From positions 558,001 through 622,000 of the forward strand of contig JAWWNJ010000028.1 of the NCBI GenBank assembly GCA_037176885.1: a DNA stretch of 64,000 bases, read 5' to 3'. Each line of letters begins with the position of its first letter. Position 1 is the stretch's first letter. Positions 24,918 through 59,380 of the stretch are shown piece after piece. The translations under genes and the position numbers were made by a program. The notes under the pieces are model-generated. The model was not told the origin of the DNA. It saw only the letters and a list, made by a program, of their open reading frames with translations, and searched no databases. This DNA is from Favolaschia claudopus. Lineage: Eukaryota; Basidiomycota; Agaricomycetes; Agaricales; Mycenaceae.

Positions 24918-24987
24918 ATGTGTAGTGGTATTGCGCAAGGGAAAAAAATACAAGCGGCAGTTCCGATCTCATACAACGCCGGGCTCA

Positions 24988-34270: not shown

Positions 34271-34793
34271 GTGACAGATTATTTGTGTCAAGTCGAAAGA
34301 AATCACTTGTGGACGCTGCTCTAAACTAGCACGAACCATCCGCCGGTTGACTCGAGAATAGAATATACACCCGCCCGTTGAGCCATTAGCTCCAGGCCCG
34401 CTATGGAAGATTTTGCCATTTAGTTTCGGAAGAGACGTGGCTTCAGAAGGACGATCCGCTAGAGCACCACCACCAAAACCTCGGTCGACCAACACTAGCC
34501 TACGTGCCGCTGCCGCTGCTCTCGATCTCGAGACTGACGATCCTTCCCGCCCGCCTGTTGCTCTTGCCCGGGAACTCTATTCTCTGCGCGGACGAACCCA
34601 AGCTCACGCTTATCGTACCCGCCAAACCCAGTCGTTGAGCCCCTCTGCTCCGCTGGAACAACAAACCTCAACTCAACCGCCCGGCACAAGACCTGTTACG
34701 CCCGACGGTGCAGCTACCCAGTCGTCAACGACTCTTTCGTCTGTCTCTTCACCACTACTCAACACTTCACCAACCCCTTCAAACAATCCGATG

Positions 34794-37700: not shown

Positions 37701-40542
37701 TTCGGTCTGTGGAAAGGGGAGAAACAGGTCGACAAGGGCGAGTCGGATGGGTCTGAGATCGCAGGGTGTATTGAAGACGTTGAGTGGGACGTCAAGAGGG
37801 TGGGCGTCAGCGGCGTTGACGGCGGCGAGCGGTTGAGCAAGGGTCATCGACGTCATGTCGTGCTGGAAAATTTGGATGTGAAGAAGAGGACTCTTGAAAG
37901 TTGATCGGAGGGACAGCGGCTAAGAAGGTGATGATGATGAAGCTCAGAGCAATACGTTGACGGTGGGGGAAGAAGCGCCGACGGTGGAGCAAGATGAGCG
38001 GAGGGTGAGAGTTGACTGGTGAGCTGGACGCTGGCGACGGGATGATTGGCGTCGAAGGGGCAGGCTATGTGTGGGGCGGCAGCGGATGACTCCTGATCGG
38101 AATTGAAAAAGAGATTGAGATGTGCGTACTATTTCCCTTAGCCACACTTTCCCTCCCGCGAGCGACACGGTTAGCGGCGACGTACGCTCGGCCTCCCACA
38201 GCCTTCAGCAGAGGGCGCGCTCCACGGTTGTCGAGCGTGACAGCACCAGCATACCGGTGGGCGGGGTAATTCGGACGGGTAGCCGCGGCATCCCGGGTGA
38301 GAGTCTGGTAGATGGGAGAGGAGGTGAGTATGCCGGTTGAGCGTGGAAGCCAGAGATGATATTGACGTACCAGTCTCGTCGCCTGTCCCCGACATTTTTG
38401 TATACCCAGTCTGCATTGCCGAGGTAACGAGCGGCGGTCGTCGCGGGAAAGAAGAATACAGAGTTGCCGAGGGGATGGTCTTGTAGGGGAGTGGAGTAAG
38501 GTGGAAGCAGGCAAACAACGAAGTCCATCTTGGTGTCATGAGAGTGAGGGGGTCCGGCGACAAGAAGATGTCGGGCTAATGGGTTGGCGATACAGTCGCC
38601 GCTGATTGTACGACGTTGACGAATTTGATGGCTTGTTGGGAATGGTGGGCAGAGATGTCCATCAGGGCTGAAGCGGGGGCGGCCCAGGCAGACGGCGGCA
38701 GGCGCGCGCGAGGAAAGTGGGAAGGCGGGTGAGTGACGATCGATGAGGTGGCATGTCACGCCTTGTGACATGTGATGTACGCCTTCCCAAGGTTGCTGAC
38801 GGCGGCCAGAATTCTAAATGCTAGGCGCCGCCGCATCGAAGGCGGTGCACTGACGGGAAGACCCGAGGAGCGGGAGCGGAAAGGCACACCGATACGTGTC
38901 ACGTGATCACCGCCGATTTTTTGTAATTTGTAAAGAAGAAAAAAAATGGATATGTATATATATCTAATAATCATGTTTAGTAGATCTCGGCACTGTGCTG
39001 AGCCGCATCAATGCCAAAATGGGTCCCAAAAGAGCCCCAACATAAAGGGTTGACTTGTGGTGCTAGCCAACCCCTTCGTAGATCCAGTCCGAAAGACAAC
39101 GGTAGCGCTGGCTAGTACCAGTCCATTTAGTCTTTATATTACATCTAGAGCTCAAGAAGAACGAGTTCGTCTGCCGCTATACTGCTCAGGCAACCGCCGA
39201 GGAGTGGCGGCAATTCGCCTCGTATTCTAAGAAGTTCGACGACTTTAAGAAAGAAATCCTGGAAAATTACCCGTCCGTAGTCGACCAAAAGAAGGGCTCT
39301 GTGCAGAAATTGCACCGGCAGCTTCGTAAGTTCACGGAAGAGGGGATCGACCGGGACGATGAAGACGAACTCATGCGCCTAATGCGCGTCATGAACGTCG
39401 AGGCAAACAAGCTTCTCGATTCGAAATTAATTTCGCACCGGGAGGCTCTCCCGATGTTCTTCTCCAAATTGAGTCCCGAGTTCAAGGAACGGATTCTGGA
39501 GAACCTCGAGCGGAAACCTCCCGCTGCCGGGGATGATGCTGACGAGCCAGAGGTCCGCACATGGACGCTGGCCGAGGTCATGACAGAAGCCAAAAGGATC
39601 GCAAAACGCTCGACCGCTAACTCTGAGTTCTTCGGCGCCTCTGACCGGGGTTACTCGAGCAAGTCCAAGAACGCCAGCGGGTCTGGAAAGGCGTCGAGCG
39701 GGCGATCCATACTACCTCACCCAAACGTGACGGTAAAGAAAGAAGAAGAGGACCCTAACAAGTCCCTTCTTGAGACGATTAAGGTGTCGGTCGTCACTAT
39801 GATGGAGCGGCTGGATAACCAGACCTCCCAATTAAAAGAGATCGACGCCGCGACCAAGAAGAGGATGGCCGAGCTAGAGTCCTTCTATAAGTCCCTACCG
39901 GGCAGAGTCCCGGGCGCCGCTGACTCCCAGTCTTTCCCGCGAATGCCAACCGTGCAATTCAAAGGGAACCTGGCGGATCAGGGGTGTCTTTATTGCGACA
40001 AGTTTGGGCATTTTAGAGACAAGTGTCTCATCCGGCAGGCCCACATAGGGAGTGGAAAGATGAAGGTCGTAGGGTTCAGAGACTGTTTCCCCGATGGGAT
40101 ACCAATCCCGAAAGACGGGCACAAGTCCAAGAAGCAGCAGGTAGAGGAGTACCGCCCGGCCGCCCAACCCACGGCCGCTGCGCAAAACTACCAGTCTGTC
40201 TTCGCTCAGCTCTCCGTTCTTGACATGGACGAGCAGGAGCTGGAAGCTGCGCAAGCCGCGTTCAGCCAGAACGAGGAATTCTACTATGACCCGAGAGAAG
40301 AAGAATTGGTTTCTTTGCGAGCTGAGCAAGTAAACCTCCAGCGGCAAGTGACGCAACTCCAGTCGCATGGTTCAGGGGGTGTTCAACCACCCCTTGTGGC
40401 TCATCAAAGCCAATCTCCCCCGCCGCAATTCGACGCCAACGCTGTTGCGATTCTGCTGGCGGCTGTCTCAGCGAACTCTCGCTCTTCCAACGGGGCTGGT
40501 CCTTCCCGAACGGGGAACAGCGTCGAAGGTGAGCATTTTTAG
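34794..40542 (+). CDS. gag: Gag polyprotein (two exons around a nested element)
   Basis: Exon 1 34794-34970, beginning at the first in-frame ATG (MADDGNNN) although the frame is open from 34413. Exon 2 runs from 39151 to TAG at 40540-40542. The join GAA|CTC puts EEPEELVRFLDHVERMME and DDKTQIE in frame with LKKNEFVCRYTAQATAEEW, which is how Gag core helices of this family run. Exon 2 carries LPMFFSKLSPEFKERILENL and a zinc knuckle CLYCDKFGHFRDKC (C-x2-C-x4-H-x4-C) at 39985-40026. Gag would form the particle and bind RNA. Without splicing, a TAG follows in frame within the original intron. The C-terminus runs into a probable second intron (40529-40620) that would fuse it to protease. Confidence 0.8.
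34992..39120. mobile_element. 4.1-kb terminal-inverted-repeat element nested in the gag intron
   Basis: Positions 34992-35033 and the reverse complement of 39079-39120 match over 42 bp with one mismatch (core CCAGCGCTACCGTTGTCTTT). Because the outermost 8 bp (TGGTACCA against TAGTACCA) are nearly palindromic, they may be a target-site duplication rather than part of the repeat. Removing the element leaves a 59-nt intron, normal for this genome. The interior (about 35300-38970) is GC-rich with overlapping minus-strand frames; 38510-38340 reads FVVCLLPPYSTPL, then VFFFPATTAARYLGNADWVY. No transposase motif was recognised. Confidence 0.65.
38065..38520 (-). pseudogene. Coding-like minus-strand fragments inside the nested element
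   Basis: Frames at 38520-38345 (MDFVVCLLPPYSTPLQDHPL, ARYLGNADWVYKN) and 38285-38110 (TLTRDAAATRPNYPAHRY, KAVGGRAYVAANRVARGRES) have protein-like composition and lie around a GTACGT and a TACCAG, but the phases do not join. More scattered frames occur down to 35390. This could be a decayed multi-exon gene, captured host sequence or the remnant of a transposase; I cannot assign it. Confidence 0.3.
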
Positions 40543-40620
40543 AGAGTTCGAGGAAGGGGGCCAAGGGGAAACCCACTGCGGATAAGCCCCCGGAGAACCG
40601 ACAAGCACGCCCGCCCGCAG
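40529..40620 (+). other. Probable 92-nt intron joining gag to protease
   Basis: GTGAGC at 40529 and CCCGCAG at 40620 bound a segment that contains the gag stop codon. Splicing turns codon GAA plus G into an uninterrupted frame through GKKMEVVMPKL into the protease ORF. Retaining the intron would give Gag alone, splicing would give Gag-protease. Confidence 0.55.
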
Positions 40621-41792
40621 GAAAGAAAATGGAAGTTGTGATGCCGAAGTTGCCCTATAAACCGAGGACGATACGAAAGCCCGCTGTCGAAGCACAGCCG
40701 GCGATCGTGGAGACCAAGGAAAAGGAGCGGGAGGAGACAGAAGAACAAAATGGCACTCAGCCGCCGGAACTTCCGTATAGGAACGTTCCCCCGGTCAAGC
40801 CAGCCAAAAGGCCCAACGAACCTAGAGTTCGGCCGGCGGGAAATCCGCAGGCGGCGGCCAACGAAAAGAACTACGAGTTGAAGGCGCCAGTAGAGGACCA
40901 GGAAGATGAGGAGGTCGAATCCTTGATAAAGGAGATCTTTGGAAGCCTGGAAATAGCGCTCCCGCTGGGGAGGTTGTTCGCCCTCAGCCCGAAGTTGCTG
41001 CGTCAGGCTAAGGCGTTGCTCTCGAAGAAGAGAGTCTCGCCCGCTGTTCGAGTCACCCTCGAGCAATTGATTAGCCACGCAGAGAAAGAAGCCGACGAAG
41101 ATGATGAGTCCTCCGGCGTAGCCTTGGAGGACCTCCCTTACGAAGCATTAGTTCAGGTCTCAACTGTGGCCGATGGACTCATGCCAGCGGGAGCTCTCAT
41201 CACTGTCGACCCGGCAGTGCAATATTGGCAGTCGGTAGCCGATGGTGAGCCGGTGAGAGAAATCTTCGTCGCGATCTCCGAAGCTTCTGCTGGAGAATCA
41301 GCGGCCCTGAGAGTGGTCTTCCCGCTCATTCATGGAGCCGCCGAAGTCGAATGCATTCTGGATGGTGGATCACAGATAGTGTCCATGGCCCTGTCGGTAG
41401 CCACCGAGCTGGGAGTCAGTTGGGACCCGGATAACTGTATCCACATGATGAGCGCCAACGGGCAAACCGAAAAGTCAGTCGGGTTAGCGAGGAACGTCCC
41501 CTTCAGGTTCGGCGATATGACAGTGTACCTACAAGTGCATGTTATACGGAACCCGGCCTACAAAGTGCTGCTGGGGCGGCCCTTCGAAATTCTGACCGCC
41601 AGCGGTATCAAAAATACTTCTGACGGGAACCAGTTCCTGACTCTGACCGACCCCTCCACTTCGAAGCGGGTGGTCGTCCCTACCTTCCCCAGAGGTCAGC
41701 GGCGGCAGGTGCGGCGCGTACAAAACGATGCGCCACCGGCTGCGCAGGCGAGCGGCGAAGAGGAACAAAATTTTCAGAATTCGAGGAGTTGA
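40621..41792 (+). CDS. Retroviral-type aspartic protease ORF
   Basis: The frame begins at the 3' edge of the putative intron (or at ATG 40629) and ends with TGA at 41790-41792. The N-terminal part is charged and variable (EKEREETEEQNGTQPPE). The protease core lies at about 41320-41650: VECILDGGSQIVSMAL, PFRFGDMTVYLQVHV and YKVLLGRPFEI, matching the D-x-G, hydrophobic and LLGRPF blocks of Ty3-type proteases. The usual active-site triplet D-T/S-G is D-G-G here, an unusual form. The frame is followed by a -1 slip site leading to Pol. Confidence 0.75.
41768..41774 (+). promoter_or_regulatory. -1 ribosomal frameshift site A AAT TTT
   Basis: In the protease frame the codons CAA AAT TTT present the classic X XXY YYZ heptamer. 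A -1 slip continues as TCA GAA TTC GAG GAG TTG, which is exactly the Pol frame, while the 0 frame meets TGA 16 nt later. A downstream structure was not analysed. Confidence 0.7.
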
Positions 41793-44700
41793 TTAACCAT
41801 CAAGGAGAGTTAGCGGTTCAGATAGAACTGGACGAGAATAATGTTCCTAGAATTTGCGCTTTGATGAAATCTGGAGAAGAGGGGTTTTCGATGGCCGAGA
41901 CGAAAATGGCCTACCTAGCGGCTGCCATGCCAGAAGTTGATGACAAACCCGCTGCTCAGCTATTTCAGGAATATAATGAGCAGCTGACAGAAGGAAAGAA
42001 CGTCGGCGAATCCTATGTAGCCATCGTAGCTAATATAACGGATAAAGTCAGAGAGAAACTGAAGGACCCAGCCGCTGTGTTCATGACAGCCGGTGCCGAT
42101 GTTGAGTCGCTCAAACAGGAGCGGTCTCGGCATTCAGCAGGGGAGCGCTGTCAGTGCTGTGACTACGCCGACTGGGTGGTGCCCGGGTTCGAACACAACG
42201 AAACGAAAGTGGTGTTGATGGAGGAAATCGTTCCCGAGGATCACCCGCCTGAAGTCGAGGTGAAGGAGGTGTTCTCGAAGAAATATAAGCCGGTAGCGCT
42301 GAAAGTAAAGCCGGTCCTCGAGCCGCTCCCTCCCGAGTTCAGGATAGAAAGAAATATCATTGGGGATCCGCTGCAGAATCTCGTCCCGCTAGACCCTCAC
42401 CCGCCAGAGTTCGTTCCCGTAGGGAGGTACACAGCGGAAAGGAAAGCGGTAGTGGACGAACTGCATAATGATGGGTTCCTGAATGATGAAGAGATGAAGC
42501 TGGTTCATCACATGTTATCTATACACGAAAATACGGTAGCATGGGATGACAGTGAACGAGGAACTTTCAGGACGGATTTCTTCCCGCCAGTCAAGTTCCC
42601 GGTGAAGGCAGACCATAAGGTCTGGGTGGAAAGAAATATTCCCATCCCGCCGGGACAGCTGGAAGAAGTCTGCAAGGTGCTTAGGGCGAGTATCGACGCC
42701 AATATCTACGAACCGTCCAACGGCTCGTACCGCACCAAGTACTTTGGAGTTCTGAAGAGTGATAAGAAGTCAATTCGGTTAGTGCATTCGTTGGAGCCGC
42801 TGAACGCGGTAACCATTGCACACTCTGGGGTGCCTCCCGGCGCCGCGGATCTAGCCGAACATTTCGCAGGAAGGGCTTGTGGGTCCACGTTTGATCTTTA
42901 TTCTGGGTACAACCACCGGCTGATTGACCCGGAATCTCGAGATTACACGACCTTCCAAACTCCGTTTGGGGCGCTTCGATTGGTAAGATTGCCGCAGGGT
43001 TGGACCAACTCGGTGCCGATCTTCCACGAAGACGTAACCTACATCCTGCGAGATGAAATTCCTGCGGTCACCCGGCCGTATATAGATGACGTGCCTGTCG
43101 CCGGCGGCTTCACTCGATATGAGAAGCCTGACGGGATGTACGAGACCATCCCAGAGAACCCGCTGATAAGGGTCTTTGTGTGGTTACACTTGGTAGACTG
43201 CAACCGGGTACTTACCCGGCTAGCCTATTCTGGGGCGACTGTAAGCGGGAAGAAGTTGCAGATTTGCCGGGGAACCTTTAAGGTGGTCGGGCATGTCTGC
43301 TCATACGAGGGCATGCGCCCGGATGAAGATAGAATCGGCGTCATTGAGCGTTGGGGCCCGCTGAAGGATTTCCACGATGTGAAAGCCTTTCTGGGAACTG
43401 TGGGCGTTATGAGGATGTTCATCCAAGACTACACGGTCAAGGCTGAACCGATTCAGAAGCTCACCCGGAAAGAGGTCATATTCGAGTGGGGCCCGCCCCA
43501 AGACGCCTGCATGAAAGTTTTGAAGAAGGCTTTGCGAGAATGTCCCGCGCTTAGACCTATAAGATATGAATGGGACACCGAAGTGGTGCTGGCGGTTGAT
43601 ACGTCGTACCTTGGAGTTGGAGTGCATGTGTACCAGCGGGATCCTTTGGACCTAAATAAGCGGTACTATGCCCGCTTCAGCTCCATACCTTTGAATGAAC
43701 GAGAGTCGAGGTATTCTCAGCCCAAGCGGGAATTGTTTGGCTTGAAGAGGGCGCTAGACCACATGCAATATTGGCTGTTGGGCTGCCGCAAACTGGTCGT
43801 CGAGACCGACGCTCAGTACCTCAAGGGCATGTTGGATCACCCGGGAATGGGACCCAACGCTACGATCAACCGCTGGATCGAGGAGATCTTAATGTTTCAT
43901 TTCACTCTGAAGCATGTACCGGGCAAGACTTTCGGGCCAGATGGACTCTCCCGCCGGCGTATCCAGCCGGGGGATCCAGAGTATGATCATCCAGAAGACG
44001 AGTTCGATAATAACGAGCCGCCGGGTCTTCATCCTGAAAGTAGCGCTTGGCCGCCTCTCAAGAATTTCGAGGATTTCAAGCACGATATTGACACCCGAGG
44101 TGGATATATGGTAGCTGAATTGGCGGGAGATGAGGCTCGGTCAGCCGCTGACTTCGAAAACGACGCCGAACAGGCCTGGGCTTACACCCGCCTTAGTAGA
44201 GAATATGTTTTCGAAGTCTTCTCTCAGTCAAAGGGTGACGACAAGCCAGCAGGCGAGCCGCTGATCCCTGACCTCGAATTGAAATACGACCCGACGAAGC
44301 GGGAACCGTATCCTGAAGACCAACGATCTGTAGCGGCGGAGCTAGCGGACGAGCGGCTGCTCCTCATGAAGGAATGGCGACGAAACACCCTGGCTCGCCC
44401 GGATGGCATGAACGACAAGGAATACAAAGCTTTCCTACGATTCGCCACCGGCTTCTTCGAGGATGCAGATGGAAAACTCTATCATAAATCCACAACGGGG
44501 AGCGCACATCAGTTGGTGGTAGACAAAGAACACCGAATGTATATGATGCGAGCGGCTCATGATAGCCTAGCTCATCGCGGCGTCTTTGCTACCAAATCCT
44601 TGATAGAAATGCGTTTCTGGTGGCCTGAGATGGAGCGGGATGTCACCTGGTACATTAAGACTTGCGAATTGTGTCAATTGAGGCAAAGGACTTTATTAAA

Positions 44701-45877
44701 GATCCCGCCCGTTGTCACCCATACCCCTTCGCTCTTCCAGGTGGTACACGTCGATGTGATGGTCGTTGGTACTCCTTCCAACGGCTTCAATAAAATTGTC
44801 AACGCCCGCTGCTCTCTCAGCAGCTACATAGAAGCGCGGCCGATAAAGAACGAGAATGCCAGAACGCTGGCCTTGTTCTTACTTGAAGATGTGATTTGTA
44901 GGTGGGGTTGCCCGGAGGAACTGGTGACAGATAATGCGCCGGCCTTCCTAGCGGCCGTAGCCTACCTTGAGTCTAAATACGGCATAAGAAATATTAGAGT
45001 TTCGCCGTATAATTCTCAAGCCAACGGGAAAGTCGAAAATGGGCACTTCTCCATGAGGCAATCCTTATGGAAAGCTACTGGCGGGAATCCCAGCAAGTGG
45101 TACTGGTTCTTCCCGCAGATGTTGTGGGCTGACCGGGTCACTATTCGACGAGGAACGGGTTGTTCACCCTACTTTATGGTAACGGGCGCACATCCAGTCC
45201 TCCCGCTGGATATAGAAGAAGCGACTTGGCTAGTGCATCTGCCCGGCAGGACTCTAACGACCGCTGAGTTAATCGGCTATCGGGCCCAGGCTCTGGCTAA
45301 GCACGCCACTCACGTCGAACAGATGAGGGAGCGGGTCACCGACGAGAAACGAGCGAATTTGCGCCGGTATGAGATAGCACATAAACATACTATCGAAGAT
45401 TACCGTTTCGAGCCGGGAGACTTGGTGCTCATCAGGAATACGACCGTTGAGAAATCGCTGAATACGAAGATGGCCGCCAGATACCTGGGACCAGTAATTA
45501 TCATCCGGCGTACGAAAGGTGGAAGTTATATCGTAGCGGAGATGGACGGTTCTGTCTTTCAATCAAAGATTGCTCAGTTCAGGGTAGTCCCCTTCGAGCA
45601 GCGGCGCTCTATCAAGCTGCCCGCTGACATTCACGACTTAATTGACCTCTCAGCCGAGACGCTAGAAAAGATGGTCCAGGAGGAAGACGGTTATTCTGGA
45701 GACGACTTCCAATTCGGGAATGTAAGGTTAACCCCCAGCGGGACGGCTGACGAAGAGCCGGCCCTGCAGGAGGCCTTGCCCGAGGAAGAAGAAGAGGGAG
45801 AGGAACCTGACACGGATGAGCCGCTGCCTTTCAAACGAAAGACTCGTTCTGCTACGAAAGCCGCTGCGCGGAAATGA
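41774..45877 (+). CDS. pol: Pol: reverse transcriptase, RNase H, integrase
   Basis: About 1365 codons in the -1 frame. The RT has VHSLEPLNAVT, STFDLYSGYNHR, LVRLPQGWTNSV and the catalytic YIDD at 43079-43090. RNase H has LAVDTSYLGVGVHV, REL in KRELFGLKRAL, and VETDAQYLKG, with LSRR closing the domain. Integrase has an HHCC zinc domain (AAHDSLAHRG with CELCQLRQ at 44545-44685) and a DDE core with HVDVMVVG, VTDNAPAF and KVENGHFS (44745-45060). A C-terminal GPY/F-like RYLGPVIIIRRTKGGSYIV follows. No chromodomain is obvious. No stops or frameshifts interrupt it, so it could be active. It ends with TGA at 45875-45877. Confidence 0.92.
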   Translation, partial: SEFEELINHQGELAVQIELDENNVPRICALMKSGEEGFSMAETKMAYLAAAMPEVDDKPAAQLFQEYNEQLTEGKNVGESYVAIVANITDKVREKLKDPAAVFMTAGADVESLKQERSRHSAGERCQCCDYADWVVPGFEHNETKVVLMEEIVPEDHPPEVEVKEVFSKKYKPVALKVKPVLEPLPPEFRIERNIIGDPLQNLVPLDPHPPEFVPVGRYTAERKAVVDELHNDGFLNDEEMKLVHHMLSIHENTVAWDDSERGTFRTDFFPPVKFPVKADHKVWVERNIPIPPGQLEEVCKVLRASIDANIYEPSNGSYRTKYFGVLKSDKKSIRLVHSLEPLNAVTIAHSGVPPGAADLAEHFAGRACGSTFDLYSGYNHRLIDPESRDYTTFQTPFGALRLVRLPQGWTNSVPIFHEDVTYILRDEIPAVTRPYIDDVPVAGGFTRYEKPDGMYETIPENPLIRVFVWLHLVDCNRVLTRLAYSGATVSGKKLQICRGTFKVVGHVCSYEGMRPDEDRIGVIERWGPLKDFHDVKAFLGTVGVMRMFIQDYTVKAEPIQKLTRKEVIFEWGPPQDACMKVLKKALRECPALRPIRYEWDTEVVLAVDTSYLGVGVHVYQRDPLDLNKRYYARFSSIPLNERESRYSQPKRELFGLKRALDHMQYWLLGCRKLVVETDAQYLKGMLDHPGMGPNATINRWIEEILMFHFTLKHVPGKTFGPDGLSRRRIQPGDPEYDHPEDEFDNNEPPGLHPESSAWPPLKNFEDFKHDIDTRGGYMVAELAGDEARSAADFENDAEQAWAYTRLSREYVFEVFSQSKGDDKPAGEPLIPDLELKYDPTKREPYPEDQRSVAAELADERLLLMKEWRRNTLARPDGMNDKEYKAFLRFATGFFEDADGKLYHKSTTGSAHQLVVDKEHRMYMMRAAHDSLAHRGVFATKSLIEMRFWWPEMERDVTWYIKTCELCQLRQRTLLKIPPVVTHTPSLFQVVHVDVMVVGTPSNGFNKIVNARCSLSSYIEARPIKNENARTLALFLLEDVICRWGCPEELVTDNAPAFLAAVAYLESKYGIRNIRVSPYNSQANGKVENGHFSMRQSLWKATGGNPSKWYWFFPQMLWADRVTIRRGTGCSPYFMVTGAHPVLPLDIEEATWLVHLPGRTLTTAELIGYRAQALAKHATHVEQMRERVTDEKRANLRRYEIAHKHTIEDYRFEPGDLVLIRNTTVEKSLNTKMAARYLGPVIIIRRTKGGSYIVAEMDGSVFQSKIAQFRVVPFEQRRSIKLPADIHDLIDLSAETLEKMVQEEDGYSGDDFQFGNVRLTPSGTADEEPALQEALPEEEEEGEEPDTDEPLPFKRKTRSATKAAARK

Positions 45878-46099
45878 ATTACTGCTACGATATCTACGTT
45901 ACAGTCTGAAACGAGATTCGAAGTCTTTAAGTAATTGAATTTCCTTCATCTCCCGCCAGTGCGCTGCGAACAGGTTGCGCACCCGGGGAGTGTGTGGCGG
46001 CCAGCAGAAGGATGAGCCGTGAGGTGTCCGAAACGATTGAGCCAGTACCGAGGATTCTGAAGAAAGGGGGACCCGCTGGGGGAGCTCTTTAGGAACGAG

Positions 46100-47338
46100 T
46101 CAGGGAACATGAGCATCGACGCCGGCAGAAGAAGACTCGGGGAAGTCGCGAAGGCGAGCCGAGATCTTCTCTCCTTCGTCGAGGAGCTGCTCGCGCCGGG
46201 CCAGAGAGCTACGAAGGTTCTCGTGGATGACCGCCAGCTCGACCATGATGAAATACATCCGCTTGCGCAAGGCAAGGTGGTTGCTCATGAACTCGGTACC
46301 CATCTCAACGACGCTAGCGGCCTCGTCGACAACAGCACCTGAAGCGGGTGCCGAAGCATAAAACTCAGCCGTTGCTGTAATAACATTCAGCGGGAAACCA
46401 CTGACAATGGACGGGAAACTCACCGTGGGTGAGGAAGGAGTCCTCGTGGAACGGGACACTGTCGATGCGGGCGCGCTTGTTGCCCTTGCCCTTCTTAGCG
46501 GGGGCCGGGCTATGCTGAAAGATTGAAATAAATGACAGAAGCTAAAGCAGAAATAACGTGCGACTTACAGCGCACGCACCCTTCTTGCCCGCCATGGCTG
46601 ATTTAGCCTTGGGACCGGTAGGGGGAGCCTTGGGAGCGGGGACATGCTCATCGTCAACGAGCATCTGGGTGAACAAACACCCAACGGCGATGATAGAAGT
46701 GTCAATCGTCAGCTCTACACAGGCCAGCTGTTAAACGAAAGAACGAACCTCGTCAGCACCAAGGGTGGTGAGAGCGGGCGATGGAGCACGAACGGTGCCT
46801 TCGTCCTCGTCCTCAGACTCAGGTTCACCCTGAGACCGCCCGCGAGTACTCTTCTAGCGGGGGATGATTGTGAGTCAATGGTGGACACGACAATAAAAGT
46901 TAGTGAAACCGACCCGGGTCCCCTTGGAAGAAGAAACGGTGGAGACGGGCGGGATCGCCTTCTTGGAACGGTCTTCGTGAATGGCCTTGGTGATCCGCCG
47001 CAGGGCATCGTACCCAGCGGGGAAGGTCACGTCCCGTTTACCATCCGGGTCGTACAAGGAGTGGTAATATTCACGCGAGGTGAAGATTGCCTCACGAAGA
47101 ACCGCGCTCTTGTCTTCCAAAATGAAAGGCATGAGCGGGGGAAGGCGCGCCTACGAACGAAAGAATAATGTTAAAAACGATACTGGTCAACGTAGCCGGC
47201 GACTCTTACAAGGATCTCGGCGACGTCCTTGAGCTGGTTTTTGCGAGACTCGGGCGGCGAATACTTGACGAGGTTGGCGGCAACGTCCATAGCCTTGAGG
47301 AAATCGGCTTTGACGGTGTTGTAGTCGTTTTGAGACAT
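46100..47338 (-). CDS. Antisense gene 5: basic/acidic protein with C-terminal coiled coil
   Basis: ATG at 47338 (MSQNDYNTVK), 65-70 nt after a TATAAG box (47403-47408). Exon 1 ends at 47192. A 41-nt intron leads to 47150 and ARLPPLMPFILEDKSAVL, then REYYHSLYDPDGKRDV. Further exons give KSTRGRSQGEPESEDEDEG, then VPAPKAPPTGPKAK, then SPAPAKKGKGNKRARIDSV (nuclear-signal-like), and finally a helical exon with EMGTEFMSNHLALRKRMY, LARREQLLDEGEK and stop at 46102-46100. It has no six-cysteine cluster, unlike its four neighbours. The exon at 46850 joins only if the donor is GTCGGT. Function unknown; a nuclear role is inferred from the basic patches. Confidence 0.6.
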
Positions 47339-47402
47339 TTTTGAGGAAGCAGAGTAAAGACAGTAGACGAGGCTGGGGAGTATACCCGTCCGCCCGCTGC
47401 TT

Positions 47403-47408
47403 CTTATA
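47403..47408 (-). promoter_or_regulatory. TATA box of antisense gene 5
   Basis: On the minus strand GCTCGAG is followed by TATAAGAAG, 65 nt before the ATG. Antisense gene 1 has the similar CGCTCGACG-TATAAAAG context, suggesting the two promoters share an origin. Confidence 0.5.
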
Positions 47409-47758
47409 CTCGAGCGGCCGTAATTAACGCCGTAAGGATAATTTGGACGAAATTTGGTCAACGGCCGAACTTGGATTACCCTTTATGGTAGATGCACCCG
47501 CCGGTGGCGCAGAAAATTATTTCAAACGCACCCGATCGTTCCGTGGCACGAAAGTTTGCTGCCGGGGAACCTGAATTTCCTCTGATCAATCAACTGGGGA
47601 CAGTTGAGATTTCTGAAAGGGGGAGAGGTGGGTCACCTAGCACGTCATTTGAGGGCAGCGGGCACATCTTTACCAAGAAATAAATGTTTCCAAGGCCTCA
47701 CATGGGGCGGGAGCGTGTGTTATCGGAACGAACTATCCGAAAGTACATGTGCCTGTAT

Positions 47759-48387
47759 CTACACTGCCCGCATCCTAGCCGGAAGATCCAGGAAAAGATT
47801 ATTGGCGAGAACGTCTAACCGCTCGCGGATAACAGCAACATACGCAGCCGGGAGATTAGCCGTTTTGGCCTCCTGAAGAAGATGGAAAACCAAGCGGGCC
47901 TCGAAGTAAAAAGACAGCCGTTGGGCTGCCTCTGCAACGTTCCGCCCGACGATTACAGAATGGTATTGTTGCCAGAATGGGAACTGCGCCAGGGTCCCCT
48001 CATGAAGGACGTCCCAAGCAGCTAGCTGTTCCTTCGTAGCCGCTAGAAGCGAGCGGGGAATCAGTTGTGGCGCAACAGATGAGAAAGAAGTCGTCACTTA
48101 CGATCGGGACCCTCTTTGAAACGGTGCCGGCGGGCAGCAATTTCATCGGCCAGCTCAGCGGTCTGGGTGTACGAGCAGTTGTGCTTCAGCAAGTAACAGC
48201 GGGTGCACGGCTCTCCCCACTCAGTAAACTCGCAATGAGAACGGGCGTTGAGGCACGCAGAGCATACCCGGCCAGGCTGCCGAATGATGAGGAATTACCC
48301 GAGGCAAAATGTTCAGGAACGTACATAGTACTCCCTGAGCGGGCCGACGGGGTCATTCGGGAAGAGTGGATGTTCCAGCAAAGACAT
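47759..48387 (-). CDS. Antisense gene 4: six-cysteine zinc-cluster-like protein (173 aa)
   Basis: Exons 48387-48325, 48276-48102 and 48042-47759 (63, 175 and 284 nt). Exon 2 carries VCSACLNARSHC then EFTEWGEPCTRCYLLKHNC, that is C-x2-C-x6-C-x8-C-x2-C-x6-C, the spacing of fungal Zn2Cys6 binuclear clusters, although the basic residues usual in the first loop are missing. Exon 3 is helical (TKEQLAAWDVLHEG, AEAAQRLSFYFEARLV). Exon order and phases match antisense genes 2 and 3, so they are likely tandem duplicates. DNA binding is inferred, not shown; a purely structural or protein-binding zinc fold is possible. Confidence 0.7.
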
Positions 48388-48670
48388 GAGTAGACGACTG
48401 AAGCAAATGGGACCTTCCCGCCAGCTTAAATATCTCTCTGAGACCTGGCGGGAGACCCAAAAGCAGAGAGATCGACAGCGGGACTCATTGCACCCGACGC
48501 TCCCGGAAGATCCGCAATACATGTGGAATATCCAACGAGGTGCTGAGCTCCCGCTGGGCAAAAACACGAGGAAGCTTTGGTTTCTAAGAAGCCTTCCTAA
48601 TCGGGCAGCTTGAAACAGAGTTTTAAAGATGCAAGTTCGTTTGACAGTGGGAATATATTTCCTACTACGC

Positions 48671-49342
48671 TTACGGCCCGATGAACATAACGGGCGGGAG
48701 CCTTGCGCCGGACTGGAGGGCTACAGCGTCTAACCTATCCCGGAGGAGATCTACAATTTCCTTCCGTACGCCCGCCCCCTTCGCGTCAAACCACAGTCCG
48801 TACAAGAAGCGTAGCTGGCCAAACCCAAGGGTGCCGAGCATGGACCTGGCGGCGAGGATGGTGCAAGTACGCACGTCAATGTACCGCTTCTCGTCGAGTC
48901 GGGCGCCGGCAGCCCTGGCGTACCAGTCAAACTGAGCGATCCGTCCGGCGGAGGGAGCTAAAATTCACTAAGGCCCCCGCTGAGAGGTATAAAGATAGAA
49001 AGCAGACTTGCCTGGCCGAGAGGCTAGGAGAGTGTCGCGACGACGGCTGTTCTCGGCCTGCCAGACGGACTTCTTAGTGTAGCAGCACAAGGCGGCGCGA
49101 CCTATGAACATGCAGCTGAGGCAGGCTTCACCCCACTGAATCCAGATGCAATGGCGGTAGTTCTTGAGGCAGCACTGGCATTCGTACTCCGGCTAAGAAG
49201 AGGCACCCGTCAGCGGGAGAGCACTGAGAAAGAACGAAAGACCCACAAACTGAGCTTGAAGTACGAGCTGGTACTCTGAGGGACCGGTGAAGCTCCTAAA
49301 GCGTTCTGAGTAAAAAGTCGCTGCCAAAGAAAAGGCGGGCAT
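48671..49342 (-). CDS. Antisense gene 3: six-cysteine zinc-cluster-like protein (187 aa)
   Basis: Exons 49342-49247, 49192-49012 and 48957-48671 (96, 181 and 287 nt). It starts MPAFSLAATFYSERF. Exon 2 has ECQCCLKNYRHC, then IWIQWGEACLSCMFIGRAAL and C: C-x2-C-x6-C-x8-C-x2-C-x8-C. Exon 3 reads AQFDWYARAAG, then CTILAARSMLGTLGFGQL and FLYGLWFDAKGAGVRKEI, helical. The second intron uses a GC donor (GCAAGT), a rare but accepted variant. Its tryptophan/glycine context (WGEAC) is shared with gene 4 (WGEPC) and gene 2 (WGSKC), which supports common descent. Confidence 0.7.
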
Positions 49343-49515
49343 CGCTCGAAGGACTCACTGGGCACCGGCCGCTATAAGTAAAAACCTATAGCCGACGGGT
49401 GAGTACCACCGGCTGCCGGACCAAAAGTTCAGGTGGAATCAGACATCACGATAACGGCTTGCGACCGGGCACAGAGATTTATTTGACCCTAACGGGGAAA
49501 AGCTACTAGCCTGGG

Positions 49516-50258
49516 TTACCGCTCGAAGGTCTGGCGGCGCGTGCCTTGGGCCAAGGGCACGACGGTCGGAACATTAGAGTCCCGTCGCCTGATATCATGG
49601 AGCGAGATAGCTGCGTCGACGTCGCACTGGGCATGGATCGAGTGATCCTGGGTACGCCACTCGCGTAAAACTCGAGACAGGATGTTGTAGAAATACAGCC
49701 GCCGGCTGGAGTGAGCGGCGTGATTTAGGTCGTGAGCAATGTCCCAGTCACGAAGGTCGCCAGCAAATTCCTCCCGCCGACGCAAGAAGTCAGCGGGCTC
49801 ACCGTCCACCGAACCTATAAACATATCGGGGCTTAAGCCGCCGAGGCGCAGGTGGTACCAGAGTTCGAGGAATGCAAGGTCGTATAAAGTGCCGCCTGAA
49901 TAACATAAGAAAGATGAGGATTTGAAGAGCGGCAGGACTTACCGCTGCGATAGATGAAAAGTGTCGGAAAGGTCGAAGAAGGATAGGTATACTTGAACCA
50001 ATCCACCCCGGCGAACAAGCATTTGGGGACCTTCGCTTCCCGGCACCTAGTGCACTTAGACCCCCAGTGAAGGAATTCACAGTCTTCGCCAGCGTCACTG
50101 CAAGGCGTGCAGACGAGGTTTGGCTAGCGGCTGGTTGGACTTGGCGCAGAAATGTGTCGAGGACAGCCTACCACAGTATAAATCTTGCGCACGAAGTCTT
50201 GACTGGCCGCTGGGAAGAAATGGTAGTCGATTAAGACTTCACCTATAGGCTGAGGCAT
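49516..50258 (-). CDS. Antisense gene 2: six-cysteine zinc-cluster-like protein (215 aa)
   Basis: Exons 50258-50172, 50123-49943 and 49895-49516 (87, 181 and 380 nt), introns of 48 and 47 nt. It starts MPQPIGEVLIDYHFFP. Exon 2 has VCTPCSDAGEDC, then EFLHWGSKCTRCREAKVPKC: C-x2-C-x6-C-x8-C-x2-C-x7-C. Exon 3 reads LYDLAFLELWYHLRLGG, then FAGDLRDWDIAHDLNHAAHS and YFYNILSRVLREW, helical. The cysteine exon has exactly the same length as in gene 3. It lies in tandem with genes 3 and 4, 174 nt from gene 3. Confidence 0.72.
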
Positions 50259-51069
50259 GACAATGAAGGAAAAAGATGGTTTGATTGGCTATCTACCCCT
50301 ATCGACTATACAAGTACGGTAGCGGGCAGCTCGGGCCGCCGGGCCAGTCCTACTCTACGTTATCACTCTTACGAGTCCAGCGGGAGGAATAAGGAACTAG
50401 CCACCCGGTGGAGTCCGAGGACAGCCGCTGATAGTTAGAAGAGAAGCCGCGGGCAATCCCCGCTAACTGATGAAGCACGGTGATAAGCGTTGATGCCGCT
50501 CGGCATGTTGAAAAAACTTGACGTTCAAATGTTCAGCCCGCTCTCCAAGTCGTACTCAGTCGACGGGCGTGGTACTTTGTCGAAATTCCTCAGCCTGAAC
50601 TCTTAACTCAAAACTTAAGAAGGTTTCTGGCGGGATCTTGACTTAGGAACTTAAAAAGAACTTAAGATGTTCACACTTAAAAGAGCAGCGCAATTCAAAG
50701 CTTTTATTTCATTGGCTCTTTGGCCGGCACATGCTGCTGTACTATGGAAAGAATATTTTTATTTTTGAAGGGTGCAGCGGGCAGAACCGAATGTTCTGCC
50801 AGGCTGCACCGCGCGCACGAAACCGTTTGCAATCGGGTTGAAGGGACCCGGACCCTGCGATACGTATAGCGAATAAAATATTTTGGGGGCCGCTCGGCCC
50901 CCGCGATGAAACAATCTCCTGGCGGGCGAAGGACTTGGTCAGAATATTGAAAGAGAAAGAATTAAGAAAAGGGGAGACTTACCTCCCCGCCCGGCCGAAG
51001 ACAGTGGCCGCCGACAAGCTGTGAAGTAGTCAGCAAGGTGGGCAAGGGAGATCAGGTGAGGACATACCT

Positions 51070-54000
51070 TCAAGACGCCGCGCCATCGAACGGAGGCGGC
51101 GGCATTCCCCAGGTGCTGGGGGCCATGTCGTCGTCCTCGCCGGCCGCATCCACGTCCGCCTCCTCCTCCCCCGCGCTGTCAACTGGAGTCGCGGCACGCT
51201 GCTTGCCCGCCCGCTTGGCAGACATTACAGGCGCTGGCGGGAGGCGGTCTTCGGCTAGGAAAGAAATAAGTGACTGAAAGAAAGATGAATGATAAAGCCA
51301 CTTACGGTCGGTTGACTCTTCGGAGTCTTCGTCCTCCTCCTCGGCGTCGGAAGCGGCAGTGGGAGTTTTGGGGGCGGGGGCCTCAGCCGGCGGCTCGTAT
51401 TCCCCGTCGGACTCGACGGTGGGCTTGCTGGTTGGAGCCTTCTTGCCTTTGCGAGCCTTCGAATTCTTCTTGGCGGGAGCGGGCTTTGGCTCAGCGACGT
51501 CGGGAATATCGGTCACCTTGCCAAGCTTCTTGAGTTTGCCCAAAAACCCGGGTGTGTCGCGGAGGACTTTGAAAGGATGGGGCCGCCCGTCGGCTGTCTT
51601 CTCGGGGACGGTGAGACCCTCGAACCGCTGAAGTTCGCGAGCGAGGCGGTTGCGCAACTTAACGTCCGACACACCCGCTGGCAACTTCTTGTCGTCCAAA
51701 AGGACGTCGAGGCAGTCGTCGGCCTGGCGGGAATAGAATTAAGAAATAGAAAGAATTAGAAACCTTGAAGCTCACCTTGACTTCGACCCACTGAGCCTTG
51801 CCCTCTTTGTCGGCGAGAGCGGGGATGAGGAAAAATCCGTAGTGGTCATCAAGCTCGCGATTGTCGACAGCCTTGTAGAAATCCCAGGCGGATTTGAAGG
51901 GAGCTGGCAGCGGGGAGCGAAGGTCGTCGTAAGCGGTGGCGTGCCAGACCCAACCACGATGAAGGTTGGACTCGGCGGTCAGCGATTGAGCCATCGCCAA
52001 CTTGAGTGTGACTTCCATGAGGAAGTCGCACTCAGCCTCGTCCTCCCCGGCGAATCGGTCCAGGAATTCCTCGTAAGTCAGCGAGCGGCGGGTCTTGAGG
52101 ATCACCAGAAGAAGTTGGAGGAGACCATACTGGTACTCCGAGTTGGCGCGGACGGCGGCGGCGTTAGCGTCGGCGGCGACGCGACCGAGAGCCATAGCGT
52201 TCTCCATTTTCTCCTTCCAGCCTTGAAATTGAAAGATTGTAAGAAAAGTCCGGCGGGAGCCAAGAAATTTGAATAAAGCTCACCGGCGTTGGACATATCG
52301 GCGTAGCGTAGGACTTCGGGACCTAAAGCACCCAAGACCTCACCGCTCATGAGCAAGGAGCAGCTGTTGGTGGTCTTCTTTTGGCGGCAACCGCGACACA
52401 TGGCGGGGGTGCCCTCGATGACACACGAACTGCCGAAGCTGAGGCAGTTGGTGCACCGGGGGCCGACCTAGAGAAACTCATGAATCGAGTAAAGTCGAGG
52501 GGCGGCCAGGAGGAACTTACCTGCGGGCGCGCCAAATTCAGCATCTGGCGGATCCAGATGTCCGAGATAATGAAGCGGTTCGTCTCCTCGTCGAAAGGGA
52601 GATCTTCGCGGACTGTCGCCGGGAGCATGCTAAGGAACTGGTGAAGCACGCCTTTGTTGGGCTGCAGGAATCCGACTTCTTCTGGCAGGCGGTTGCGGCG
52701 GGGGTGAGAGCGCGCGTTCAGCGTCTGGCTATGCGCAATCCCGCTGTAAGCAAGGAGGTCAGGACGGCCGCTACGAGGGGAATTTTTAAAGAAAAACTCA
52801 TCTTGGTCGTGACGGGGATGATATCCTCTGAGCGAAGGATGCTCTGGATGAGCATGGCCTCCGACACGTCCTTGACCGCGACTGAAGCGGAGACAGGGAG
52901 TGGCGCCTTTGCGCCGGCCTTGGCGACTTTGGGAGCGGGAACGACTGTTGTCAAAGAAAAATAAGAAATCTAAAGGAAAGAATGAGAAAGAAAAGACTAT
53001 ACCTTTGCGGCTGGAACTCGCTACCGGGGCCTTGGGGGCATCCTTGGTCTCGATCACCTCGATGTCGGAGTCGTGGTCTGAGCGGGCGCGTCCGTTATGT
53101 TCGCAGAGGAACTGATAAATGTTGAAGATACCTTCCGATGCCGGTGCCTTGGCGGGCTACAAAAAGGCCTAAGTCAGGAAACGAAGGGGTCTTCTGGTAG
53201 CGGGACTTACCTTGGTCTTTTTGCCTTTAGGCTCCTCGTCCTCAGCGGGAGTATCGGGTTCCTTGCGCTTTGAGCCACCAGCGGGCGTCGACTTGATGAT
53301 GACGACCTGAGGGACTTCCTTGGGGACAGGACCGTAACGAGGCCCACCGCCGCCCTGAAAATTCGGACTAAGTCAGTCGAGCGCGGTGGAGGAGCCGGCA
53401 TATCGGCCTACCCTGGTGGACTTCGCGGACGCGGAGGAGCCGGGTTGAGCAGGCCCCTGCAACGAAGAAGACGAAGTTACCTTAGCAGGGCCTGACTTGC
53501 GCGACTTAGAGCCCGCTGGGTGGTCCGACACGGGGGTGACCTTGGGCGTTTGAGGAGGCGCTGTGGCGGGCGGGGCGACTGGAGGTTCAGCCGGCAGCTG
53601 CTTGGCCGCGGTCTCATTCGTGAAGTCTCGCAGATATGCGGACTGCGGCAATACGTGGAGGAGTTAGCCATGAATCGGGAAGAAAGGCTCGAGGGTTGCT
53701 CACCGGGCAGCCGAAGTTGATAATCTCCGACTTGGTCAACAGAAACTCCCTCAGCTTGGGGTAGTCTTGGCCCGGGTCGGCGAGGTTCACGGCGGTTCGA
53801 AGAGAGTAATGAAGGGCGATCAGCCATGGCGGGCAGCCACGAAGATCGCCCAGGCCGGCGCGCGAATCGGTCTAAGAATGAAAAGAAGGATAATCAGGGA
53901 GAGCCGCCGCCGACTAGCAGCAGCAGGGACCTACCAGGACAACCCGAACGTTGTTGAGGAACCTGAGGACGTTGTCGGAGTCTTGCTGTTTGGCCACAGC

Positions 54001-54102
54001 GGGGATGGCAATTTGCTTGAGGTCGCGGAACTCGTCGCGACCAAGGCGGCGGAGGGCTGCATACCAGTCCTTGGCGGGAGCAGGAGCGGCAGCGGAAGTC
54101 AT
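51070..54102 (-). CDS. Antisense gene 1: large multi-exon zinc-cluster-like protein with nuclear-type basic regions
   Basis: ATG at 54102. Clean exons are 54102-53935, 53871-53704, 53642-53412, 53354-53211 and 53156-53003; further exons follow to a TGA at 51072-51070. Order of regions: helical N-terminus (DWYAALRRLGRDEFRDL, LREFLLTKSEIINF), a proline/serine/lysine-rich linker (KSRKSGPAKVTSSSS, then GGSKRKEPDTPAEDEEPKGK), a helical part with GVLHQFLSMLPATVREDL, then at 52467-52340 RCTNCLSFGSSC and VIEGTPAMCRGCRQKKTTNS ending C (C-x2-C-x6-C-x8-C-x2-C-x8-C). A long helical region follows (EYQYGLLQLLLVILKTRR, RGWVWHATAYDDL), ending in a charged tail with KARKGKKAPTSKP and acidic runs. The join near 52800 is unresolved. 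It resembles the small genes 2-4 only in the cysteine exon. Confidence 0.65.
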
Positions 54103-54276
54103 GCTGGGTGTGAAACATCCAACATGATTCCAAAACTTAGAAAGGGCTCAGAGACGGTTGGCGGGGAAGACTCACGTAAATCCGTTGGCGGGCTTGGGAT
54201 AAAAGAAGTTAAAGATAGATGAAAACAGGGTGAAAAGAGGAAAATTTGATGGGAACCTCGACGAAACCTCTGGCTC

Positions 54277-54284
54277 TTTTATAC
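54277..54284 (-). promoter_or_regulatory. TATA box of antisense gene 1
   Basis: TATAAAAG on the minus strand, about 175 nt before the ATG at 54102. It indicates a promoter inside the element that is independent of the LTRs. The rest of 54103-54790 shows no gene. Confidence 0.5.
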
Positions 54285-54790
54285 GTCGAGCGGCGGAGCT
54301 CGAAATTCTTGATGGGATTCTCTGAAAACCTCAGAGAAAAACATTTGAATGAAGAAGCGCCGCCGTGAGAGCGAAAAATCTGAGTCAGACTGCGGCTGCG
54401 GGCCTAGAAAGGTGGAAGCAGGGACCTACAACGATAAAGTTTGGATATAATGAAAAGAAGCTGATGTACTTCCCAATCGGGAAGTCAATACATTCCCGAT
54501 GACGATTGACGAAGTCCGAGCGCCGCGGCGAAGGATAAGGTTCGAATTGAATGGCCTTGCAGGGTCTGCCTAAAAATAGGTCGAAAGAGAGTTTGGGAAG
54601 GCCCGAGGGCTGATTCTGGCATGGAATACAGAAGGGAACTGGCGGGATCGTCGGGCCTCGCTGGCGGGCCGCCAGTATTTTATCGAAATCGTTCCAAGAC
54701 GAGATTGTCTTGAAGTCCCCTTCCTCTGAAAGATGACAAGTCGCTCAGCGGGCGGTACACCCACCGTCAACTCGGGAGAGTTGAAATCTA

Positions 54791-54802
54791 GAAAGGGGGA
54801 GA
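54791..54802 (+). other. Polypurine tract
   Basis: GAAAGGGGGAGA lies directly before the 3' LTR, the expected primer site for plus-strand DNA synthesis. Confidence 0.8.
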
Positions 54803-56632
54803 TGATAGGGCCGCTCAGCGGCTACGCGTGAAACCACAGAAATTTGTCGATTTCTGTACCTATCAGCGGGAGGAAGTGAGGCTAGGATTACAGAAGATAT
54901 ACTCTTCCTCGAGGGTAGTATCTTATTGCTTAAGATGGCCGATAAGCCAGCGGGACATCATTATCTGGTAGCGGGAGCTTAGCGACGTCTCCCTAAACAT
55001 GGGAGCGGAACTCTGACTTCAACTACTACTACTGTTGGGCCAAGGGCGTAGCGGGAAACCGTTGCCCTAAGGTGCCGGAGGCCACCAAGAGGAATTACCG
55101 AAACCCTGAAGTTAGGCGCTAAACCGCCGAACCACCATAGACGAATCAGACGGACGGACAGACGAACTCATTAGTACTGGCGGGGACATGCCGCCGGGAA
55201 CATCACCTTCGGCGGGTCGAACAAGACCTCACAGGAGGGCCAGATCAAGGAAGACTTGATCCTACACGAGCAGCGGGCTTATCGCCGAGTACCCGACTAG
55301 CCGGCGGGTGGACTGGATCAACCAGGGAGCATCGGCTGCCTCGGGTTCACTAGCGGGGAGACCAACCGACGACGCCGGTGTCAAATACCGTTGATATCGG
55401 GGAGTCTCTCGGCGAGTGGCGAACCTTTGGATTATATCGGCTTGACCTGCTTTAAGCGGGAGCCTCTTTCCTGATGACAGAAGAACTTAGAAGAACTTGA
55501 CCGCACTCGAGCCGCCACCAGTACGGACGGCGGGAGGTGACCTTGACCTTTGCTCGACCAGCGGCAAGCAGCCATTATGAAGAAGATATTTCGTGTCTCT
55601 CCTTGAAGACATGGCAACCAGCACGCCATTGCACTGCAATAAGGCGCGATACCCACCCGCCCGCATGGACTTTCTCCGGGAAGCAGTCTATTCACTCACG
55701 ACTCGCAATCCTGAATATACCATTGGTTCCCAGCGGGCGCGGCATCACTCTTGGACACTCTCTCATCATGATTTTATTTGGTTGTTTCTGCTCCCGTTGG
55801 ATGTATTTAATCTCCCGCTGTACTTTTGGTTACTCAGTCAATTACCTACCCGTAGACAAGGGCAGTTTGTAGCGGACTCTAGAATTTGAATTGAACTTTG
55901 AAAGAGACTAGACTTGATATCTGAGAGAGACTCGAGTGATACGGAAAGACTTGTGGCATACCGAGCCGCCAGAACTTTGAGAGCCCCGCCAGCCTTTGAG
56001 CCCGAGCCCTCCTGAAATACGAAGCCCCGTTTCTCGCCGTTCCGCGGTATAACCAAGACCCCCGTTCGTGCTTGATTCCGCGCCGTCGACGCCCCGTGTG
56101 CCAGCCGTTCCGCGGTATACCCAAGACCCCCGTTCGAGCTCGCCGCCGCGTAGTGGTGTAACTGCCCGGGTCACTGTTAGTGTCCGCGCCATCGACATAA
56201 GAGCCCCGCTTCTCGCCAGAGCCGCGCCGGTCGTATAAGAACCCCGTCCCGCTGAGCCGCGCCTTCTGCCCGCCGGTTGTCATCCAGAAAGCTTCTTGCC
56301 GGTTGACGATCCACTACCGGGCGACGCTTTTCTATTGGCACGGAGACCCTCCCCGCTAGACTCAGAATTTCTCATTTCGAAGTCTCAGAAAGAGTGACTC
56401 TTCGCTTCTCCCGTTGCGAATCGTTTTGCCCGCTACGTTCTCGCTAGACAATCTAGTAGTTCGTCCCGCTCAAACGTAGCGACCTTGATTGATTGAAGCT
56501 TGCACAAGTATTCTGAGGGACGATACGTGCTCCCGCCACCCCGAACACACACACACACACGTCGTATTGGATTAGATTTTGTGATTTTATATTTCGGTAT
56601 ATTTCACGCCTACACCTACACGCACCGTTTCA
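54803..56632 (+). repeat. 3' LTR (1830 bp)
   Basis: Same length as the 5' LTR; the only difference noticed is G at 55111 for T at 32729. It ends TTTCA, followed by ACGC and then the reverse complement of the ATGGC start of gene C copy 4. Confidence 0.92.
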
Positions 56633-58719: not shown

Positions 58720-59380
58720 CGCGGCGACGTGCAAGCAGCTGTTCGGCCGCTCGGTCCGGAAAATCGATGCCGGAGTTTGCCGAATTGTTGGTTCAAAGAT
58801 TTGGTCCAACCTCAGAATTCGGATTATTTCGACTCGTAGGTGGTCGAGAATGGATCTGACTACAAGCCATTGAGTCATACATACTGTGAGTAGCTGCAGA
58901 CTTCCCGGAATCTGGCGAAGGAGCAGGGCGTTGTACCGTATAATTTCGTTCAATTCGGATGTCCCGGACTCCTGCGTCACACAACCCCGTGTCGATCCGA
59001 ACTTTGGGTTTTGGTCCCGCGTCACAATGGTCGTTGTCGAACGTCTTGGGCGTCACGGTGAGAAAAAAAATGCCCAAATCGTGCAAAAAAGAGAAGATTT
59101 TGCGGTTTTGAAATTTTTTCTTCGAAATTTTGCGCCTGGTCACGCATCGAGTTGTCGAATCGGTTCCACAAGGTCACTGGCACGCGTCACACCCCCTGTT
59201 GAATTGAACGTAGTTATACGGTATCATACCGGTTCATACTAAGTAGTCAAATACTAGTAGTACTTCACTGAGTTCATACTAAGTAGCCTCGGCGGCGCTG
59301 ATTGCAGTGGATTATCACTCGGGAAGCTTGTGTCACTCCGAAAAAACTCGTCTTACCAGGGTCAGGAACTCGTCTTGGGA
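58720..59380. other. No gene; short repeats
   Basis: Upstream region of the F-box gene. TTCATACTAAGTAG occurs twice (about 59236 and 59274), with TACTAGTAGTA between. An A-rich tract lies at 59060-59130. No reading frame with gene features. Confidence 0.45.

Follow-up and report, generated by a model that had tools for sequence, protein, structure and literature searches.

A cluster of five predicted intron-bearing genes lies antisense to gag-pol in a Ty3/gypsy retrotransposon family of Favolaschia claudopus

A 64,000-nucleotide stretch of the genome of the basidiomycete Favolaschia claudopus (contig JAWWNJ010000028.1, C28:558001-622000; hereafter ‘the window’, to which all coordinates refer) contains a Ty3/gypsy long terminal repeat (LTR) retrotransposon in which five minus-strand genes, A-E, fill the ~8.9 kb between pol and the 3' LTR. 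With moderate confidence, we favor the explanation that this copy belongs to a ~20-kb family with a standing five-gene accessory module antisense to gag-pol, that the module encodes what are probably nuclear regulators, and that its introns are preserved by the antisense layout. The cluster is not a one-off capture, since it occupies the same place in the copies examined.

Sense-strand introns of retroelement genomic RNA are spliced out before reverse transcription, so an intron-rich cargo should vanish. According to the explanation we favor, A-E would be transcribed from their own promoters in the integrated DNA and then spliced, while their introns, reversed in the plus-strand genomic RNA, would go unrecognized as introns and survive copying through RNA. 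The Zn2Cys6-like proteins of A-D and the basic, helical protein of E may act in the nucleus, perhaps on promoters in the LTR or within the element, or else to counter host silencing, and gene A might be specific to an LTR class; these last two steps are put forward less firmly. The preference for nuclear regulators comes from the cysteine motif, the invariant basic residues of the E homologues in Mycena and the parallel with the antisense gene of the plant element Grande.

Gene models on the minus strand

The element spans 32421-56632 (24.2 kb) and has 1830-bp LTRs and a 4-bp target duplication. Paired LTRs, TG...CA ends, the target duplication and the pol order reverse transcriptase, RNase H, integrase place it in Ty3/gypsy. 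RT_RNaseH and Integrase_H2C2 score above the Pfam cut-off in pol and RVT_1 slightly below it, and the best solved-structure match of pol is the Ty3 Gag-Pol (E 6.6e-34). An earlier, sequence-only reading of this DNA had called a Ty3/gypsy element with LTRs here; its limits and strand layout hold.

Downstream of the pol stop at 45877, no plus-strand stop-to-stop frame longer than 188 amino acids occurs in 45878-54802, and the models of all five minus-strand genes are open from end to end. They contain 21 predicted introns of 47-89 nt, of which 20 are GT-AG and one is GC-AG; the five intron-bearing genes with consensus introns that the sequence-only reading had placed in ~9 kb are thereby recovered, with one intron uncertain. 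At this intron, the sixth of gene A, no GT was found where one was expected, and we provisionally set a GTCACG...CAG intron there, matching in phase its counterpart in other gene A classes. Its limits are uncertain because two annotated F. claudopus proteins (P0001 and P0003), which by eye agree with gene A over most of their own length, place the junction elsewhere. Intron 2 of gene C (48958-49011) is GC-AG in 3 of 19 copies, including the window, and GT-AG in the other 16. The stops of pol and gene E lie 222 bases apart in the window.

Motifs and TATA-like sites were counted in 21 copies, comprising the window and 20 fetched clusters. The sequence-only reading had given at least two of the genes their own TATA boxes; this stands for gene E, whose site is present throughout, but for gene A the site is restricted to a minority of copies (Table 1), most of those without it having another gene A class or being disrupted there.

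Protein features

A six-cysteine motif with Zn2Cys6 spacing, for which we take the PF00172 pattern to be C-x2-C-x6-C-x5-12-C-x2-C-x6-8-C, is found in gene B in 19/19 copies, in C in 18/19, in D in 20/20 and in A in 19/21. Judged by alignment, B, C and D are paralogues (D-C, D-B and B-C score 18, 15 and 5 standard deviations [SD] above shuffles, respectively); gene A exceeds shuffles by only 3.0, 1.9 and 3.5 SD against B, C and D. Pfam returned no family for A, B, C or E. Structure predictions had mean pLDDT (predicted local distance difference test) values of 43 for an E homologue and 33 for A, leaving models that were unusable. Among solved structures, the motif profile matches Leu3 best (E 0.037), and unrelated chains come close behind.

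These properties also bear on a different assignment, in which the cluster encodes particle or nucleic-acid-handling proteins (env-like or nucleocapsid-like) and not regulators. Zinc-binding motifs and helical proteins would suit nucleic-acid chaperones equally well, and the structural support for a regulator, resting on the Leu3 match, is marginal. Against this, the cysteine spacing is of the Zn2Cys6 type and not that of a CCHC knuckle, and the basic stretch of E is conserved in Mycena, the basic residues being invariant in the homologues there. We regard particle proteins as unlikely, though worth keeping in mind.

Purifying selection on genes B-E

For the selection tests we omitted one copy (L025) with only 2.6 kb aligned, leaving 20 copies with the window, 19 of which could be scored for B and C. 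Ratios of nonsynonymous to synonymous differences per site (pN/pS) are 0.097 for B, 0.089 for C, 0.133 for D and 0.119 for E, and frames are intact in 17/19, 18/19, 20/20 and 18/20 copies, respectively. In all 19-20 scored copies, the introns of B-E end with AG and begin with GT, except that one gene C intron starts with GC in 3 of the copies; intron divergence (B, 0.059; C, 0.058; D, 0.013; E, 0.043) exceeds pN and falls short of pS in each gene. Between the window and a single sister copy, C104, pN/pS is 0.12 for A (264 changes), 0.11 for B (15), 0.00 for C (6), 0.11 for D (4) and 0.08 for E (20), with plus-strand values of 0.03 for gag, 0.10 for protease and 0.06 for pol. The strength of purifying selection on genes B-E is close to that on gag-pol.

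As a control, the same exons were read in the wrong frames. Four of the five gave pN/pS of 1.1-5.1; the fifth, an antisense frame with shared wobble positions, gave 0.14-0.29, almost the true-frame value in gene E. Since pN/pS alone does not therefore name the strand, the coding strand was assigned from open frames and splice borders. The persistence of the B-E borders in every scored copy strengthens the argument, already made in the sequence-only reading, that the antisense layout preserves the introns; minus-strand transcription and splicing themselves are still inferred from the DNA.

The control is also what speaks to a function of the minus strand as RNA, by which antisense transcripts would pair with the genomic RNA and control it through silencing, with coding incidental. 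Regulatory antisense transcripts are discussed for plant elements in the portion of PMC7264820 used here, but the changes in B-E show a third-position excess with in-frame pN/pS near 0.1, and the cysteine motifs are kept. RNA as the sole role was rejected on the wrong-frame control and is, in our estimate, very unlikely; an antisense RNA may act in addition to the proteins.

Element length, copies and relatives

The length of 24.2 kb given in the sequence-only reading describes the span of this copy, but was rejected as the length of the family. In both sister copies examined (C104 and C8), position 34959 of gag directly adjoins 39154, the joint being marked by AAGA, and the window copy thus holds a nested insertion of ~4.2 kb. 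The insertion is flanked by AAGA and has 56-nt inverted repeats near its ends (34992-35047 and 39065-39120, 89% identical); its middle has no second full-length match in the genome, only partial matches at ~70-87%. Pairs of class 1 LTRs are spaced 16.4, 18.2, 18.2, 22.1, 22.2 and 22.4 kb apart (6 pairs; 40 of 366 candidates scored), and 7 of 9 class 2 pairs are spaced 18.5-18.6 kb, the rest 22.8 and 23.7 kb (40 of 376 candidates scored). Spacings in 9 of these 15 pairs indicate a usual element length of ~20 kb. The C8 copy, at 22.1 kb, lacks the gag insertion, so its surplus length must sit elsewhere.

The genome searched comprises 264.6 Mb in 460 contigs. In it, a 91-residue piece of gene E is matched 145 times, counting fragments, and 95 of these matches show full identity across the 91 residues (counted by hand). 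Antisense gene E lies near pol in all 40 scored pol matches (of 322 candidates), in 39 at 2.10-2.14 kb and in one at 3.9 kb, a count that drew on 75 of the 145 gene E matches. Homologous elements without the cluster, by which the sequence-only reading would have judged it a one-off captured segment, did not turn up among these matches, each of which had gene E beside pol. Genes E and D lie at identical distances from the contig start (12384 and 14403) in C19, C66, C121 and C420, and likewise in C64 and C73 (13953 and 12019); these are repeated contig ends, perhaps subtelomeric or caused by assembly breaks in elements.

More distant relatives extend this pattern. All five genes have matches in a copy on C7, with piecewise identities of roughly 40-95%. 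In the C33 family, whose integrase is 72% identical, gene E matches lie antisense to pol (39% over 54 and 27% over 62 residues) and end ~0.27 kb from the end of the pol frame. Homologues of gene E occur in Mycena galopus, M. olivaceomarginata and M. albidolilacea (35-45% identical in 7/8 matches). One M. olivaceomarginata E model opens with a stretch that matches gene C at 10 SD above shuffles (0/1000 reach the score), B at 4.8 SD, D at 1.4 SD and A not at all; that species too, then, may have a C-like gene upstream of E. Region 300-640 of the gene A protein matched six Favolaschia proteins only (7993 candidates scored). The genes are stored in databases as hypothetical proteins of Mycenaceae, which matters for annotation.

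Linkage and relatives together weigh on two further explanations. A host gene cluster might have entered the space between pol and the 3' LTR in a single capture and since been copied without benefit to the element: A-E are in no known retroelement family, and a comparable capture is known in LTR elements (PMC6431247, in part). However, selection on the genes is comparable to that on gag-pol, gene E is linked in 40/40 scored pol matches, and it occupies the same place in the C33 family; passive capture was rejected on these three grounds and is very unlikely indeed. Least probable of all is that A-E came from another mobile element, anciently inserted between pol and the LTR and now co-travelling, for although a polypurine-like site at 47615, kept in 21/21 copies, could mark an older 3' end, Pfam detects no transposase family in A-E and the pol-E distance is nearly constant (39/40 copies).

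Mosaic of LTR and gene A classes

From ~50744 to the pol side, 11 of the 20 clusters agree with the window at 93-98%, and the homologue in their gene A slot is too divergent for DNA alignment; that of L011 has 26-38% identical residues (tblastx). By motif, the 21 copies comprise 8 with gene A class 1 or a sub-class of it (including the window), 5 with class 2, 6 with class 3 and 2 without the motif. LTRs of two copies with divergent gene A are ~78% identical to the window LTR over 250-350 bp; within 2.6-kb stretches, no 3' LTR was located for either the C242 or the C48 copy. Over 1001 bases, the pol piece of C242, which has a divergent LTR, scores 1801 bits, compared with 1806 for the window itself. 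Gene A adjoins an LTR in 27 copies and its class tracks the LTR class in 27/27, class 1 accompanying LTR 1 (10/10) and class 2 or 3 accompanying LTR 2 (17/17); 115 of 137 gene A matches entered this count, 27 of them with a scored LTR. LTR 2 is thus found with two gene A classes.

Judged from these comparisons, the elements are mosaic: linked gene A and LTR classes diverge, and the part from pol to B is shared. Such chimeras would arise if templates crossed over between genes A and B in the course of reverse transcription. A more specific version of the favored explanation sees the cluster as a regulatory module of a retrovirus-like kind: gene A would be an LTR-class-specific activator or anti-silencing factor that co-diverged with its LTR, gag-pol and B-E would recombine between LTR classes, and the antisense layout would let the intron-rich cluster persist. 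We offer this only tentatively and think it rather doubtful as a whole.

Weighing the evidence

Several observations weigh against a standing module of nuclear regulators. Over its first six exons in six class 1 copies, gene A has a pN/pS of 0.45 (4/6 frames intact), and over the remaining exons in eight copies 0.29 (4/8 intact), both ratios coming from provisional exon limits and gappy alignments; nor are its splice borders kept throughout the class 1 copies (e.g., 3/6 at the third intron). The Pfam Zn_clus score of D is 14.3 bits, below the cut-off of 21, and A, B and C have no match, so we call A-D Zn2Cys6-like and do not file them as PF00172 members. The C33 stretch gave gene E only, with none of A-D found there, and a protein search with gene D had 0 of 139 candidates outside. 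As gene A and the LTR are adjacent, their linkage alone is no proof of recognition. Finally, the published assembly of F. claudopus CIRM-BRFM 2984 has 265 Mb, with 86.8% of BUSCO genes duplicated, and its annotation made use of sequenced mRNA (PMC10905254, in part); both haplotypes are probably assembled, so the copies are not all independent.

The family provides a natural, multi-copy and young system for testing the antisense preservation of introns. Selection at the codon level indicates that the proteins are of consequence for the element. As a natural experiment, the mosaic combinations of LTR and gene A classes bear on whether an accessory protein recognizes its own LTR, a question that applies equally to the antisense genes of plants and Botrytis.

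Features of the window

The features of the element are collected in Table 1. Between genes D and E, at 47615-47628, there is a second polypurine tract, 12 bases of which are identical to the one before the 3' LTR, in 21/21 copies; it could be a central tract or what is left of an earlier 3' end. A similar polypurine-like site occurs at 46061-46071 in the window.

Table 1. Coordinates of the element and its genes in the window.
Feature	Position	Strand	Description
5' LTR (LTR class 1)	32421..34250	+	1830 bp; 1 mismatch vs 3' LTR; TG...CA ends, ACGC duplication
First gag part, ends at nested insertion	34362..34959	+	stop-to-stop frame 34362-35201; start codon not fixed
Nested insertion within gag, not part of usual element	34960..39153	.	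~4.2 kb; absent from copies C104 and C8
Second gag part	39154..40542	+	reading frame; pN/pS 0.03 vs copy C104
Protease frame	40533..41792	+	Asp_protease_2 match (Pfam)
pol: reverse transcriptase, RNase H, integrase	41624..45877	+	Pfam matches; Ty3 similarity
Gene E	47338-46100	-	6 exons, 310 amino acids; basic stretch; long C-terminal helix predicted, low confidence
TATA-like site upstream of gene E	47401..47408	-	present in 21/21 copies
Gene D	48387-47759	-	3 exons, 173 amino acids, Zn2Cys6-spaced motif
Gene C	49342-48671	-	3 exons, 181 amino acids, Zn2Cys6-spaced motif
Gene B	50258-49516	-	3 exons, 215 amino acids, Zn2Cys6-spaced motif
Gene A	54102-51070	-	11 exons, 810 amino acids, Zn2Cys6-spaced motif; intron 6 uncertain
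TATA-like site upstream of gene A	54276..54283	-	5/21 copies, all with class 1 gene A
Polypurine tract	54790..54802	+	AGAAAGGGGGAGA, directly before 3' LTR
3' LTR (LTR class 1)	54803..56632	+	1/1830 bases differs from 5' LTR

Outside the element, another repeat is present as two large copies in inverted orientation (2156-10752 and 21071-29597); pieces of the two are up to 99% alike, and direct repeats of ~320 bases lie within each copy. Just beyond the 3' LTR, the minus strand of 57481-59052 has a 523-amino-acid open frame that is F-box-like by eye only.

Comparison with known systems

Our statements on published systems draw on portions of the cited papers. Zhao et al. (2011) reportedly described Boty-like Ty3/gypsy elements of Botrytis cinerea with an antisense gene, brtn. 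Plant elements and Boty of Botrytis provide the known cases of antisense genes located between pol and the 3' LTR (PMC7264820, PMC8365987). Like the family described here, Boty is a fungal LTR retrotransposon with an additional antisense gene between pol and the 3' LTR (PMC7264820); in the account used it has one such gene, whereas here there are five, with 21 predicted introns and paralogous zinc-motif genes.

Plant elements with antisense open reading frames (ORFs) include Grande (gene23), RIRE2 and Retand, and published accounts call the Grande gene nuclear, with transcription from a promoter of its own (PMC7264820, PMC11963269). The region between pol and the 3' LTR of Retand is 2.9-6.6 kb long and mostly encodes TRP28 (PMC11963269), compared with ~8.9 kb and five predicted spliced genes here. 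Introns of the plant antisense ORFs go unmentioned in the portions of PMC7264820 and PMC11963269 used, whereas 21 are predicted here; this comparison too is by description only.

Burro, Ogre and Terminons resemble the present family in size (at least 20 kb) and in having additional coding capacity, but the account in PMC6431247, as far as used here, describes additional ORFs and domains and no antisense spliced cluster; Terminons, moreover, are Penelope-like and not LTR elements (PMC6431247). LTR elements of bdelloid rotifers have a captured ORF3 and additional ORFs common to element types, but no antisense intron-bearing cluster is described for them in the portion of PMC5408684 used. Our literature search found Boty brtn as the sole fungal case of an antisense gene, and no antisense cluster of five intron-rich, partly paralogous genes; other descriptions are possible in both cases. 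Single antisense genes are already known, and what is new in the F. claudopus family is an antisense cluster of five genes with predicted splicing.

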